From assembly GCF_001541345.2 (NCBI RefSeq), contig NZ_LMVL02000002.1:992001-1056000 (forward strand): a stretch of 64,000 nucleotides of DNA, read 5' to 3'. The notes under the pieces are model-generated. The model was not told the DNA's origin, did not search any database, and saw nothing but the letters and a program-made list of their open reading frames with translations. Position 1 is the first letter of the stretch, and every line of letters begins with the position of its first letter. A program made the position numbers and the translations under genes. This stretch comes from Gillisella vitis. GTDB taxonomy: Bacteria > Pseudomonadota > Alphaproteobacteria > Rhizobiales > Rhizobiaceae. Of the stretch, positions 15,915-63,838 are shown one piece after another.

Positions 15915-16165
15915 GGATGGGCTCCCTAGATGATGTTGGCGCAGAGGCTATCCTTGAAATGCCACCTTGGGAAGCACGGGATTGACACTGAAAACAGTTT
16001 GCTCCTATCAATCTTAACAGGGTCCGCAGTTCACCCAGACGTCACCGCTCCTGGAAAGGAGAGCTAAACCTGCATCATCCAAGATCCACGGCACGCTTTA
16101 TTGCGCCCGCTGGCAGGACGGTGGCTACCGGCATGGCATGGGCGCATGTATCGAAGGATAAAGCG

Positions 16166-60346: not shown

Positions 60347-61495
60347 TTATGCCGCACATGATTCCATCATGGTTGGTGCGGGTAAAAATTCCTGCCTCTG
60401 CAAGTAGTTCAAATAGGTATCTAGTAACTCGAACTTGAGTCTGGGGGGCCAGACATCATTTTCGATCGTTGCAGCGCAGACATTGTCGTAGCGGTATCTG
60501 TGTATCTCTCGTCCAAAACGTAGGATTTTTTCGTGAGCATTGTCGCTGCCGTAAAGTGGTAGCAGACGATAAAGTGGATTCCTTTCGCCATCAGACAAAA
60601 GTAACTTCTGCCATTCATAGAAAGGAATCATCGATATTTCATATCCTCGTGCATTTAGCCACTGAACGATATTTTTCCACTCGATCAAACCTGTAAAATT
60701 GAATAGATTTAAGACGTGTCCACCCTCAATAGTGTACTTTGGGGCATTCATAATTTTTACTGTGTAGTCAACGGGCGTGAAATTGATTGTTCTATCCAGG
60801 TCTGGCGCATAGCCAAGCTGAATGCAGCTTTTTATGAAAAGCATAAACTGGTTGTTTTCAAACAAAGAAACGCCAGACGTACTGTGTCCGGATATATAGC
60901 CGAGGCGAAACAGGTTTGTTTTACCCCCTTCGGCTATGAATTTCGCTTGTAATTTTTCTCCTTCCCATTTCGAAAGCAGATATCCCATATCGGATTCTAG
61001 AGGTGTGTTGTCTGGGAAGTCCTCTAGATAATTGCCGTTGTCATCGCGCGTCACAGCGGAGCCTAATGTTGACACGAAATTCACGATTTTTGGCTTTCCA
61101 TGGGAAGCCATAAGAATAGCATCTGACATGCTATCTACGTTGGGTTTCCTGAGCAATTCATAGGGCTGGATGTGATTCACGCGCGCGGCGACATGATGGA
61201 TGACATCTGCTTCCTGGCATATCATTTCGTAAGTGGTGTCAGATAGTCCAAACCGGGGCATCGTTATGTCGCCCTCTACAACTTGAATCTGGTCAGTATA
61301 GAAACAATCGATATTCGTCTCTATGGAGAATTTCTTGAATGAAGACAGAATTCTGTCTCGGTCGTTTTGTGGATCAAACCTGCGGCACAATGTATAAATT
61401 TTCCCGATATGAGAACTTTTGAGCATTTCGGTAAGAAGGTATGCGCCTATGAAACCAGTTGCACCTGTAAGAAAAACGTTTTTATTTTCGCTCAT
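60347..61495 (-). CDS. Stand-alone thioester-reductase-like (NAD_binding_4) protein
   Basis: A 382-residue extended short-chain dehydrogenase related to NRPS/carboxylic-acid-reductase R domains. VFLTGATGFIGAYLLTEML binds NAD(P)H, STLGSAV and YLLSKWEGE supply the catalytic Ser/Thr-Tyr-Lys set, and FTPVDYTVKIM is typical of the R-domain C-terminus. The gene is clearly AT-richer than the flanks. No carrier protein, adenylation or condensation gene is visible, so its acyl substrate must come from elsewhere. Likely horizontally acquired. Confidence 0.8.
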   Translation of the reverse strand: MSENKNVFLTGATGFIGAYLLTEMLKSSHIGKIYTLCRRFDPQNDRDRILSSFKKFSIETNIDCFYTDQIQVVEGDITMPRFGLSDTTYEMICQEADVIHHVAARVNHIQPYELLRKPNVDSMSDAILMASHGKPKIVNFVSTLGSAVTRDDNGNYLEDFPDNTPLESDMGYLLSKWEGEKLQAKFIAEGGKTNLFRLGYISGHSTSGVSLFENNQFMLFIKSCIQLGYAPDLDRTINFTPVDYTVKIMNAPKYTIEGGHVLNLFNFTGLIEWKNIVQWLNARGYEISMIPFYEWQKLLLSDGERNPLYRLLPLYGSDNAHEKILRFGREIHRYRYDNVCAATIENDVWPPRLKFELLDTYLNYLQRQEFLPAPTMMESCAA

Positions 61496-61785
61496 ATCAA
61501 ATACCCTTTATATTGAGAGATCTGAACTCCAAGGTTGAGGGCATGTCACATCATTGTGCGGAGCAACAAAAGAGCCGTGCAATGCAAAACAGCTTCCAAT
61601 TTTTCACGCAAGTAGATTGACGGATTGCGTATCAATGGTTGTAAAAATGAAAAAATCTACTATAGGAATACATCGGAAGGCCTACTTCATGTGGTGAAAC
61701 GGTGCTGCTGTGTACTGGTTGTGTCGGAGGAACATGCCATAATGACCGCTTGACTTTTCCTCTATAAGGAGGGATCATTGCGGAC
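61496..61785. other. AT-rich gap upstream of reductase and attenuator
   Basis: The divergent gap holds the reductase promoter and that of the attenuator transcript. I see no convincing gene in it; one minus-strand frame (61632-61817) has no sensible start or domain and overlaps the leader peptide. No clear -35/-10 pair with normal spacing can be fixed by eye. Confidence 0.4.
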
Positions 61786-61839
61786 ATGATCAACACGCGC
61801 ACAACCATTTCCTGCACGTATTTTTGGGCCTACCGGTAG
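61786..61839 (+). CDS. Leader peptide of 17 residues (attenuator)
   Basis: MINTRTTISCTYFWAYR, then TAG. An AAGGAGGG lies upstream (13 bases before the ATG; an ATT codon four triplets earlier has better spacing). The stop codon abuts the first strand of a set of competing hairpins (61841-61896) before the GNAT gene, the layout of a ribosome-mediated attenuator. The peptide is rich in Thr (4), aromatic residues (Tyr, Phe, Trp, Tyr) and Arg, but has no run of one amino acid. Confidence 0.6.
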   Translation: MINTRTTISCTYFWAYR

Positions 61840-61840
61840 C

Positions 61841-61918
61841 CGGCGGCCTGACAGATCACTATGTCAACAGGCCGCCGTCAGGCGGCCTTGTTGTTTGAAC
61901 GAGCTTCCCTGACGGCGG
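61841..61918 (+). promoter_or_regulatory. Transcription attenuator: antiterminator and terminator hairpins
   Basis: Strand 1 (CGGCGGCCTGACA, 61841-61853) pairs with strand 2 (61862-61877, TGTCA...GGCCGCCG, three-base bulge, loop 8). Strand 2 instead pairs with strand 3: CAACAGGCCGCC (61865-61876) with GGCGGCCTTGTTG (61881-61893), loop GTCA, one bulge, then TTTG. The two folds exclude each other. A further complement, CCTGACGGCGG (61908-61918), can also pair with 61872-61882. A ribosome finishing the leader peptide would cover strand 1 and let the terminator form. Confidence 0.65.
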
Positions 61919-61939
61919 TATTTCAAGAGGGAAGCAGCC

Positions 61940-62428
61940 ATGACTGAAGATAGCGACATTACCCTGCCAAGACCAACGATGGTCAGCATTCGCAATGCTC
62001 AACCCGGCGACCTGCCGGAGTTGAATGAGATGATTGCGGCGTTGGCCGCCCATCACGGCGATGCCTCGGACATGACTCCGCAAACACTGAAGCGCGACCT
62101 GTTCGGCCCGATGCCGTGGATCACAGCGCTGGTGGCCGATGGTGGTGAACAGTTGATCGGCTACGCCATTCTGATGCCGCTTTACAGGGCTCATGAAGGC
62201 AAGCGGGGCATGGAACTGCTGCATCTCTACGTGCGCGATGGCCAGCGGGGAAATGGCATCGGCCAACACCTGATAGCCCGCGCCCGTGACGTGGCGCGCC
62301 AGTCCGGCTGCGATTACCTCTCGGTGTCCGCCGCCACCGGCAATTTCGCCGCCCATCGCTTCTACGAGCAGATGGACTTCTCCGCCCGGCCTGTAACCGG
62401 CATGCGCTACATTCAGGCGCTGGCCTGA
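61940..62428 (+). CDS. GNAT N-acetyltransferase under attenuator control
   Basis: A 162-residue GNAT enzyme. The acetyl-CoA loop is RDGQRGNGIGQHLI (about 98-111), preceded by the strand MELLHLYV and followed by NFAAHRFYEQMDF. GAGGGA is 8 bases before the ATG. The upstream leader peptide and competing hairpins suggest induction when translation of the leader stalls. Substrate unknown: an amino acid, polyamine or antibiotic are all possible. Confidence 0.85.
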   Translation: MTEDSDITLPRPTMVSIRNAQPGDLPELNEMIAALAAHHGDASDMTPQTLKRDLFGPMPWITALVADGGEQLIGYAILMPLYRAHEGKRGMELLHLYVRDGQRGNGIGQHLIARARDVARQSGCDYLSVSAATGNFAAHRFYEQMDFSARPVTGMRYIQALA

Positions 62429-62854: not shown

Positions 62855-63775
62855 TTACTTCGCTGGAATGGCTTTCAGATAGGCGGCAATCGCTGCGCGG
62901 TCTTCGGCTGGCAGTTCGGCCAGGTTTTTCTGCACCTCGACCATCGAGCCGCCCACACTGTCGAAATCGGGGGTGAATCCGGTTTCCAGATAGCTGGCGA
63001 TTTCGTCTTTTGACCATTTACCCATGCTGTCGGAGCCGGGGGTGATATCGGGGATGCGGCCTTCGCCTTCGGGGTTCGGTCCACCGGCCAGCCATTCATC
63101 CGCCTTCAGCCCGCCGATCACGTTGCGAGGTGTGTGGCATTCGCCGCAATGGCCGGGGCCTTCGACCAGATATTGGCCGCGCTGGATCTGCGCATCCGCA
63201 GAGGCCAAAGTGACGCGGGGTTTATCGTTTAGAAACAGCAGTTTCCAGCCGGTCAGCGCAAGGCGCTGGTTGAAGGGAAAGCCCAGCTCATGCGGCGGCG
63301 CGACATTGCCGCTGACGGGCAGGGTTTTCAGATAGCCATAGAGATCGGCGACATCCTGCGGCTTCATCCGCGCATAGGATGTGTAGGGAAAGGCCGGATA
63401 AAGGTTTTCGCCGGAAGGACCGATCCCACGGGTGACGGCATCGCCAAATTCCGCCAGCGTCCATTCGCCGATCCCGGCCTTCGGGTCCGGCGAAATATTG
63501 GGAACATGAAACGTGCCGAACTGGGTTTTCAGCGCCACGCCACCGGTGAGCAGCAGGCGCGCATCGCCGGTCGCCCCAGGGGCGGCATGGCAGCTGGAAC
63601 AGCCGCCAGCAAAAAACATCCGTTTGCCATTGGTAAGGTCGGGTGTCGTCGTCGCGGCCCAGACGGCAGCGGGCTGGCGGTGCGGTGCGACGGCAAAAAC
63701 ATAGGTGCCGACCAGTGCTACACCCAAGACGAGTGCCGCCGCGATGCCGAATTTTGCCGTTCCAGCCATGCTCAT
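62855..63775 (-). CDS. Diheme cytochrome c
   Basis: A 306-residue membrane-anchored or exported cytochrome with an N-terminal hydrophobic segment (about 8-30) and two heme sites, CSSCH and CGECH. Likely Met axial ligands are in the ARMKPQD and SMVEV regions. The layout matches two-domain cytochromes that pass electrons from periplasmic dehydrogenases. Start ATG 63775 or 63769. It lies 63 bases downstream of the cytochrome c'-type gene, probably one operon. No dehydrogenase partner is visible inside the window. Confidence 0.87.
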   Translation of the reverse strand: MSMAGTAKFGIAAALVLGVALVGTYVFAVAPHRQPAAVWAATTTPDLTNGKRMFFAGGCSSCHAAPGATGDARLLLTGGVALKTQFGTFHVPNISPDPKAGIGEWTLAEFGDAVTRGIGPSGENLYPAFPYTSYARMKPQDVADLYGYLKTLPVSGNVAPPHELGFPFNQRLALTGWKLLFLNDKPRVTLASADAQIQRGQYLVEGPGHCGECHTPRNVIGGLKADEWLAGGPNPEGEGRIPDITPGSDSMGKWSKDEIASYLETGFTPDFDSVGGSMVEVQKNLAELPAEDRAAIAAYLKAIPAK

Positions 63776-63838
63776 CCCCAATTTCTTTATATATCAAACC
63801 CGCCCGGTTGCCCGGACAGGTCTCTTCATGGGATGAAA

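Follow-up and report, generated by a model that had tools for sequence, protein, structure and literature searches.

What signal governs the gene for a GNAT acetyltransferase in Gillisella vitis, and why should such an enzyme stand behind an attenuator? The gene (61940-62428, + strand; 162 residues, PF00583, E 3.1e-15) lies near the end of the stretch of 64,000 nucleotides that was analysed, referred to here as the window. An initial annotation recognized the logic of trp-type attenuation in front of it and suggested that a ribosome stalled by an antibiotic or by the nascent peptide provides the signal. The locus is better read as a ribosome-mediated transcription attenuator that senses the supply of charged aromatic tRNA, a reading to which we assign a probability of about 0.78, and the signal would then likely be a shortage of charged aromatic tRNA. 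This reading rests on the conservation of the leader, on its codons, and on the covariation of strands 1 and 2, of the terminator apex with a fourth strand, and of a helix that contains the Shine-Dalgarno (SD) sequence of the GNAT gene.

The leader ORF (61786-61839, +) has 17 codons, from the ATG at 61786 to the TAG at 61837-61839, and encodes the peptide MINTRTTISCTYFWAYR, in which the aromatic codons TAT TTT TGG are read at 61819-61827. A promoter is predicted at 61750-61785 (+), with a -35 box TTGACT at 61750-61755 and a -10 region at about 61773-61780. Two alignments of such leaders were used: A1, which contains the window and 28 of 29 other loci (L023, where the full leader is absent, was dropped), and A3, which has 45 rows (10 loci among the 50 inspected were omitted, nine with a same-genus relative that was kept and one a false match). 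TTGAC stands 34-36 nt ahead of the leader ATG in 41 of the 42 GNAT leaders of A3; the remaining one has a spacing of 39 nt. An SD-like 4-mer precedes the ATG in 7 of the 42. This spacing and the rarity of SD-like letters predict a leaderless message, the transcript starting on the leader AUG or no more than about 2 nt away from it.

Three RNA strands follow on the same (+) strand. Strand 1 (61842-61853), supported by the antiterminated fold and by a swap test, is the 5' arm of the antiterminator; the loop between strands 1 and 2 contains GATCAC (61854-61859); strand 2 (61862-61876) is common to the folds of antiterminator and terminator; and the terminator loop GTCA, evident in the sequence at 61877-61880, leads to strand 3, the terminator 3' arm, which together with a short T-tract occupies 61881-61896 (strand 3 proper, 61881-61893). 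The frame of 17 codons, the three strands, their coordinates and the attenuator logic had all been described correctly in the initial annotation. Some details differ. Strands 1 and 2 had been given 13 bp; in the antiterminated fold their pairing (61842-61853 with 61862-61876) amounts to 12 bp and is interrupted by a bulge of 3 nt. Strands 2 and 3 can form the 12 bp claimed for them around the GTCA loop, with one bulged U (61865-61876 with 61881-61893). The T-rich tail is present but short in the window (TTT, 61894-61896); across the 42 GNAT rows of A3, without exception, the 10 nt past GGCGGC hold 6-9 T. Antiterminator and terminator are mutually exclusive, as in a trp-type attenuator. The folding energy of the window element is mildly unusual (z -2.25, equalled by 2 of 200 shuffles), and folding alone is weak evidence; a chance origin is excluded because the element is conserved.

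At the DNA level the element was matched in 34 of 36 genomes of the same genus, the two misses being genomes that are 66% and 88% complete, and in none of 24 other genomes of the order. The covariance model R1 reached further, with matches in 104 of 394 family genomes. The match lies directly upstream of a GNAT orthologue in 103 of them; that in the 104th, G326, was judged false. On reading, the R1 locus L097 was judged a false match. The window's genome holds one good copy (E 4.4e-29), its next match (E 0.0115) showing no attenuator on reading. GNAT orthologues are present in 114 of the 394 family genomes (E <=5.7e-37), and the further matches to the GNAT query, which begin at E 5.5e-20, are taken as paralogues. 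All 114 orthologues, distributed over 23 genera, have the leader in front of them, 103 as found by R1 and 11 as recognized by eye (eight in Martelella, genus g103, two in genus g91 and one in genus g74). No leader was seen at the four GNAT paralogues that were read, nor at the sole GNAT homologue found outside the family (E <=1e-25, 347 genomes of the order). A pattern scan that detects the YFW type alone named as hosts, among the matches listed, Agrobacterium, Rhizobium, Sinorhizobium/Ensifer, Neorhizobium, Shinella, Martelella, Ciceribacter and Peteryoungia. One metagenome-assembled genome labelled Arenimonas (L140, JAIBEK010000028.1) has an Allorhizobium-type locus, and the name of the record looks wrong.

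Covariation was assessed by swap tests on 21 rows, a single representative per genus, with 5000 swaps each. The pairing of strands 1 and 2 was equalled by 25 and by 5 of the 5000 swaps under two choices of genus representative, the upper part of this stem being weak under one choice (200/5000) and not under the other (4/5000). A hairpin at the stop codon is weak (475/5000). The terminator stem gave 139/5000; covariation barely tests it because the stem is almost invariant. Unrelated segment pairs, used as controls, gave 1585/5000 and 4870/5000. The comparison of orthologous loci, which the initial annotation had proposed as a check, upholds the leader itself and the covariation of strands 1 and 2, and leaves the nearly invariant terminator little tested. 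Conservation, together with the covarying antiterminator, backs the trp-type logic ahead of the GNAT gene.

The nature of the signal is indicated by the leader codons. In stating that the peptide has no run of one amino acid, the initial annotation did not take into account the run of aromatic residues of different kinds in TYFWAY. Conservation of the peptide is confined to this aromatic end (YFWAYR, YFWLFR, YFWAFL and similar); the N-terminal half drifts, and even the order of the aromatic residues changes. In every one of the 45 rows of A3, 23-24 nt separate the first aromatic codon from the core of strand 1, a distance that suits a stalled ribosome that leaves strand 1 unpaired, as in established attenuation logic. 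An antibiotic acting on the ribosome, or the peptide itself, could also arrest translation of the leader and induce a resistance GNAT; the strongly conserved end YFW[AL][YF], with its likewise conserved codons (TAT in 40/42, TTT in 42/42), and the distant relationship of the GNAT to resistance acetyltransferases would be in keeping with such an arrest. However, the order is WYF in seven loci of three genera (WYFTLLP, WYFTLHS, WYFTAHR), a change that is hard to square with a fixed arrest peptide, and is different again in one locus that ends in CWFYYANLP; the final residue varies among R, L, P, Q and S; and sister leaders at genes of aromatic metabolism share the RNA plan and not the peptide, the residues being YY where tyrS or a tyrA-like gene follows and FWYFYY where the gene for a DAHP synthase follows. 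Drug or peptide stalling, the signal first proposed, is consequently very improbable. The drug-induced translational attenuators of the erm/cat type have no terminator, and their stall site is set by a conserved arrest peptide. They are not matched by the GNAT leaders, in which the hairpin is followed by 6-9 T (42/42 of A3) and the peptide order is variable; the Martelella leaders, which are without the T-tract, come nearer to them in layout. One leader, L295, ends in RYFTLFR and has no Trp.

The sister leaders came from R2, a broader model that matched 63 of 397 genomes at E <=1e-3 in an order-wide search. Reading of 19 of its loci (L118-L136) gave 13 clear attenuators of the same RNA plan and two unclear cases (L127, L130); the other four (L126, L128, L131, L136) were rejected as chance terminators. 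Ten of the 13 precede tyrS, and their leaders include NYYATLP, FVYFYYVTSIP and VYYYAPDIS; two precede genes resembling that of prephenate dehydrogenase (tyrA-like), with SYYRLSS and SYYRTNP; and one precedes the gene for DAHP synthase (aroG), where SFWYFYYSS provides Phe-Trp-Tyr-Phe-Tyr-Tyr. In a scan that covered 8 of the 13 proteins encoded downstream, five TyrS and the DAHP synthase exceeded curated cut-offs, and the two tyrA-like dehydrogenases were above the cut-off of Pfam PDH_N and below that of NCBIfam; a genome search recovered all ten tyrS genes in place and above cut-off. R1 also has a second match elsewhere in seven genomes, and three of these loci, in Sinorhizobium/Ensifer, were read. 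L098 lies ahead of an intact second tyrS, L073 (G297:C14) is a Tyr-Tyr attenuator ahead of a truncated tyrS, and L081 (G127:C1:2250917-2251063) is a Tyr-Tyr attenuator without tyrS behind it. L098 is in another genome of the genus of L081, and the intact second tyrS is retained there.

The products of these sister genes act in the synthesis or the charging of the very amino acid that is sensed. Their leaders point to charged aromatic tRNA as what this RNA family senses, and the GNAT is counted as part of that response. Two copies of tyrS are present in all 11 genomes that have a clear leader ahead of a full-length tyrS (L098, L118-L120, L122-L125, L129, L134 and L135), and also in a twelfth genome, G759, whose leader is unclear; each of the three genomes with tyrA-like or aroG leaders has one copy. 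No leader was seen at the other tyrS copy in the eight Rhizobiaceae genomes inspected. Since the two copies go together with the leader in 11 of 11 genomes, the leader-controlled one is probably a back-up, and back-up TyrRS enzymes that are inducible seem to be spread through the order. In the Firmicutes, a second, inducible tyrosyl-tRNA synthetase such as tyrZ is under T-box control. The sister loci resemble this arrangement in controlling one of two tyrS copies (11/11 genomes) and differ in using a leader-peptide attenuator and no T-box. A single RNA plan ties the GNAT response to a second TyrRS, TyrA and DAHP synthase.

In the proposed mechanism, the mRNA would begin at or beside the leader AUG. 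A scarcity of Tyr-, Phe- or Trp-tRNA would halt the first ribosome at TAT-TTT-TGG; strand 1, left unoccupied, would then be available to strand 2, no terminator would form and the GNAT gene would be transcribed. With all three tRNAs in ample supply, the ribosome would reach the stop codon and mask strand 1, strand 2 would form the terminator with strand 3, and transcription would stop near 61896. Both the premature termination and the leaderless start, like the aromatic-tRNA signal itself, are inferred. That the GNAT itself is not among the known genes of aromatic biosynthesis counts against this reading.

Beyond what a textbook attenuator contains, the aligned leaders carry a conserved extra layer, overlooked in the initial annotation and composed of a fourth strand and of the SD helix. 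Strand 4, CCTGACGGC (61908-61916, +), is the complement of the terminator apex GCCGTCAGG (61874-61882). In the SD helix (61903-61935, +), GCTTCCC (61903-61909) pairs with GGGAAGC (61929-61935) and hides the Shine-Dalgarno sequence AGGGA of the GNAT gene (61928-61932). On A3 the apex and strand 4 pair in 393 of 404 cells and none of 2000 block permutations did as well; with one row per genus, no swap out of 5000 was as good, and the same was true (0/5000) of eight tyrS, tyrA and aroG leaders, these being the 13 clear ones with near-duplicates omitted. The loop and strand 4 change together, as GTCA/TGAC, ATCA/TGAT, TTCG/CGAA, GCAA/TTGC and GCCA/TGGC. On the GNAT tree, which has 42 rows and whose support is poor on 17 of the 39 inner branches, letters changed at least 12 times in the loop and at least 13 times in strand 4. 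The pairing is mismatched in L040, L062, L075, L088, L089, L093, L094, L095 and L096 and has a gap in L087, and the complementarity of L295 is no better than chance (285 of 500 shuffles as good). For the SD helix, none of 5000 swaps among 21 genus representatives was as good, and the native pairing beats the mean swap in 39 of 44 rows.

The 5' part of strand 4 belongs to the arm that pairs with the SD sequence, so the apex:strand 4 pairing and the SD helix compete. In read-through RNA, strand 4 could pair with the apex of the unused terminator, which would disrupt the anti-SD arm and open the antiterminated transcripts for translation; in transcripts that leak past a formed terminator, the ribosome-binding site of the GNAT gene would remain closed. 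With the antiterminator and the apex:strand 4 pairing imposed, the mean openness of the SD is 0.58, against 0.24 in the terminator fold, and the SD gains openness in 41 of 44 leaders and loses it in one (L081, where no SD was found, was dropped from this set), a release that is in part a product of the construction. That antitermination alone opens the ribosome-binding site was considered and rejected, equilibrium folding leaving the SD unpaired at 0.24 versus 0.28. The existence of a second, translational lock on the GNAT gene, as read from these alignments, is an evenly balanced proposition.

A plain trp-type attenuator acting on transcription only, in which strand 4 and the SD helix serve some other purpose such as mRNA protection or loop-loop contact with the terminator, is a serious alternative, although somewhat short of an even chance. 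At equilibrium the SD is mostly paired in both states (the same 0.24 and 0.28), and folding disfavours the apex:strand 4 pairing, which costs 6.3 kcal/mol on average (nothing in the window, -49.2 vs -49.3) and has a mean probability of 0.25 when the RNA is antiterminated. Weighing against a plain attenuator are the flanks of strand 4 (GCC:GGC and GG:CC), which are conserved to the same degree as the loop letters, and the location of the 5' part of strand 4 within the anti-SD arm. Strand 4 is transcribed ahead of the SD, which makes a kinetic switch possible, and the pairing could thus be one that kinetics only would favour. Martelella also stands against the plain attenuator. In all eight of its loci (L287-L294) the hairpin is kept and the T-tract is lost, with 2-4 T per 10 nt, and yet the complementarity of apex and strand 4 is retained (0-13 of 500 shuffles as good). 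Control of transcription is doubtful there, and the switch may act on translation only, as the loss of the T-tract and the retention of strand 4 would allow.

These observations in Martelella add weight to a double-lock reading, in which the choice made by the leader ribosome would take effect at two levels: transcription would end or continue, and a fourth strand that registers whether the terminator hairpin has been used would then leave the ribosome-binding site closed or open it, with the second lock alone left in Martelella. If the second lock is real, it would keep the leaky read-through of the attenuator from being translated, and Martelella would show transcriptional control turning into translational control. 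The fuller proposal joins the double lock, with Martelella using the second lock only, to an alarm regulon for aromatic tRNA in rhizobia and their relatives (the GNAT, the back-up TyrRS, TyrA and DAHP synthase) and to a GNAT that disarms a natural inhibitor of aromatic supply or charging; taken jointly, these parts are put forward tentatively, as a combination with the odds against it.

The 5' end of the transcript, AUGAUC (61786-61791), is complementary to GATCAC in the loop between strands 1 and 2. In the alignment 249 of 270 cells pair, 41 and 71 of 5000 swaps were as good, and the outermost A:C of the helix is unpaired in the window; the covariation gives this pairing moderate backing. The constancy of TAT TTT at 61819-61824 and at the equivalent positions exceeds what the peptide needs: of the 42 GNAT rows of A3, 40 use TAT for Tyr and all 42 use TTT for Phe, whereas the usage in seven ORFs of the window is 45:25 for TAT and TAC and 48:61 for TTT and TTC. 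Slow codons, or the seed of a trans-acting RNA, are perhaps the reason. A codon count over 263 loci (TAT 260, TAC 3) was discarded, many of the loci having been fetched with a pattern that fixes TAT and some genomes being contained twice, and A3 was used instead.

In Sinorhizobium meliloti, the trp leader is reported to give rise to a trans-acting small RNA and peptide, rnTrpL/peTrpL, and rnTrpL is described as leaderless, with its ORF starting from the first base of the transcript (PMC7298713, PMC10117765). The near-constant TAT-TTT and the predicted leaderless start of the GNAT leader recall rnTrpL (PMC7298713), and the leader might serve chiefly to yield a trans-acting RNA or peptide, control of the GNAT gene being secondary. 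A trans-acting RNA has no need of one particular gene, yet the leader is linked to the GNAT gene in 114 of 114 cases; the orphan Tyr leader L081, which has no tyrS behind it, is the only hint of independence observed. Such a role as the main function is unlikely.

The same papers (PMC7298713, PMC10117765) also allow a comparison with the rhizobial trpE(G) attenuator, which likewise places the sensed codons shortly ahead of the stop and has alternative antiterminator and terminator structures. The GNAT leader differs in its mixed aromatic codons, in its target gene, and in its conserved strand 4 and SD helix. WWW leaders precede trpE in the window's genome and five relatives. Complementary stretches occur in six rhizobial trpE leaders, but a strand 4 is unsupported there: 50 of 720 permutations were as good, and in shuffling tests 14-515 of 1000 were. 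In the window's genome the leader upstream of trpE (L318, G000:C22) looks like an ordinary trp attenuator, with the peptide MNSAMKIVLSMNAWWWVR. In the enterobacterial trp, phe and his attenuators, the position of the ribosome on the leader codons selects antiterminator or terminator, a choice that the GNAT leader shares. To our knowledge these attenuators have runs of one amino acid and no layer of the strand 4/SD kind.

What the GNAT acetylates can be approached from its relatives. Its predicted structure has a good GNAT fold (pLDDT 86.8). By profile, human SSAT2 (E 1.2e-17) leads the nearest solved relatives, followed by a Pseudomonas acetyltransferase (2.9e-13) and by a thialysine acetyltransferase (3.5e-13); the Foldseek list has an uncharacterised Lactobacillus GNAT on top and consists mostly of spermine/spermidine, thialysine and ornithine-type acetyltransferases. 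In sequence and fold the protein thus resembles the thialysine/diamine N-acetyltransferases (SSAT2, the bacterial thialysine acetyltransferase and NATA), which are the closest solved proteins by profile and among the top fold matches, but differ in that identity with the GNAT is about 20-30% and in having no known tie to aromatic amino acids. Thialysine is an analogue of lysine, and by analogy an aromatic analogue would be a plausible target of the GNAT. RimL and MccE acetylate synthetase inhibitors of the aminoacyl-adenylate type, and an inhibitor of this type is a plausible guess as well. Our preferred guess, a doubtful one drawn from these analogies, is that the GNAT detoxifies an aromatic amino-acid analogue or an inhibitor of an aromatic synthetase. 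If the GNAT is an inducible detoxification enzyme, the inducer would be something that lowers aromatic aminoacyl-tRNA. With an orphan acetyltransferase and its switch from 23 genera of Rhizobiaceae placed in the response to aromatic amino acids, the substrate becomes searchable.

The surroundings of the gene were also inspected. A divergent cytochrome c gene (window 62855-63781, -) recurs beside the GNAT gene in 24 of 39 loci and says little about the function of the GNAT. On the other side, a stand-alone thioester-reductase-domain protein (TIGR01746) is encoded at 60347-61495 (-), and its gene adjoins frames that resemble, by eye, an MFS transporter and a periplasmic binding protein. A survey of proteobacterial attenuators was reportedly made by Vitreschak and co-workers in 2004. 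Leaders of the present type at GNAT, tyrS, tyrA or aroG genes in Rhizobiales were not found in the titles and abstract openings listed by searches of open-licence papers. At the GNAT locus, Rfam gave no match at gathering score, T-box included, the best sub-threshold match having E 0.87. The only match in the window at gathering level is a COG3860 RNA (RF02940, 66.6 bits) at 16020-16075 (+).
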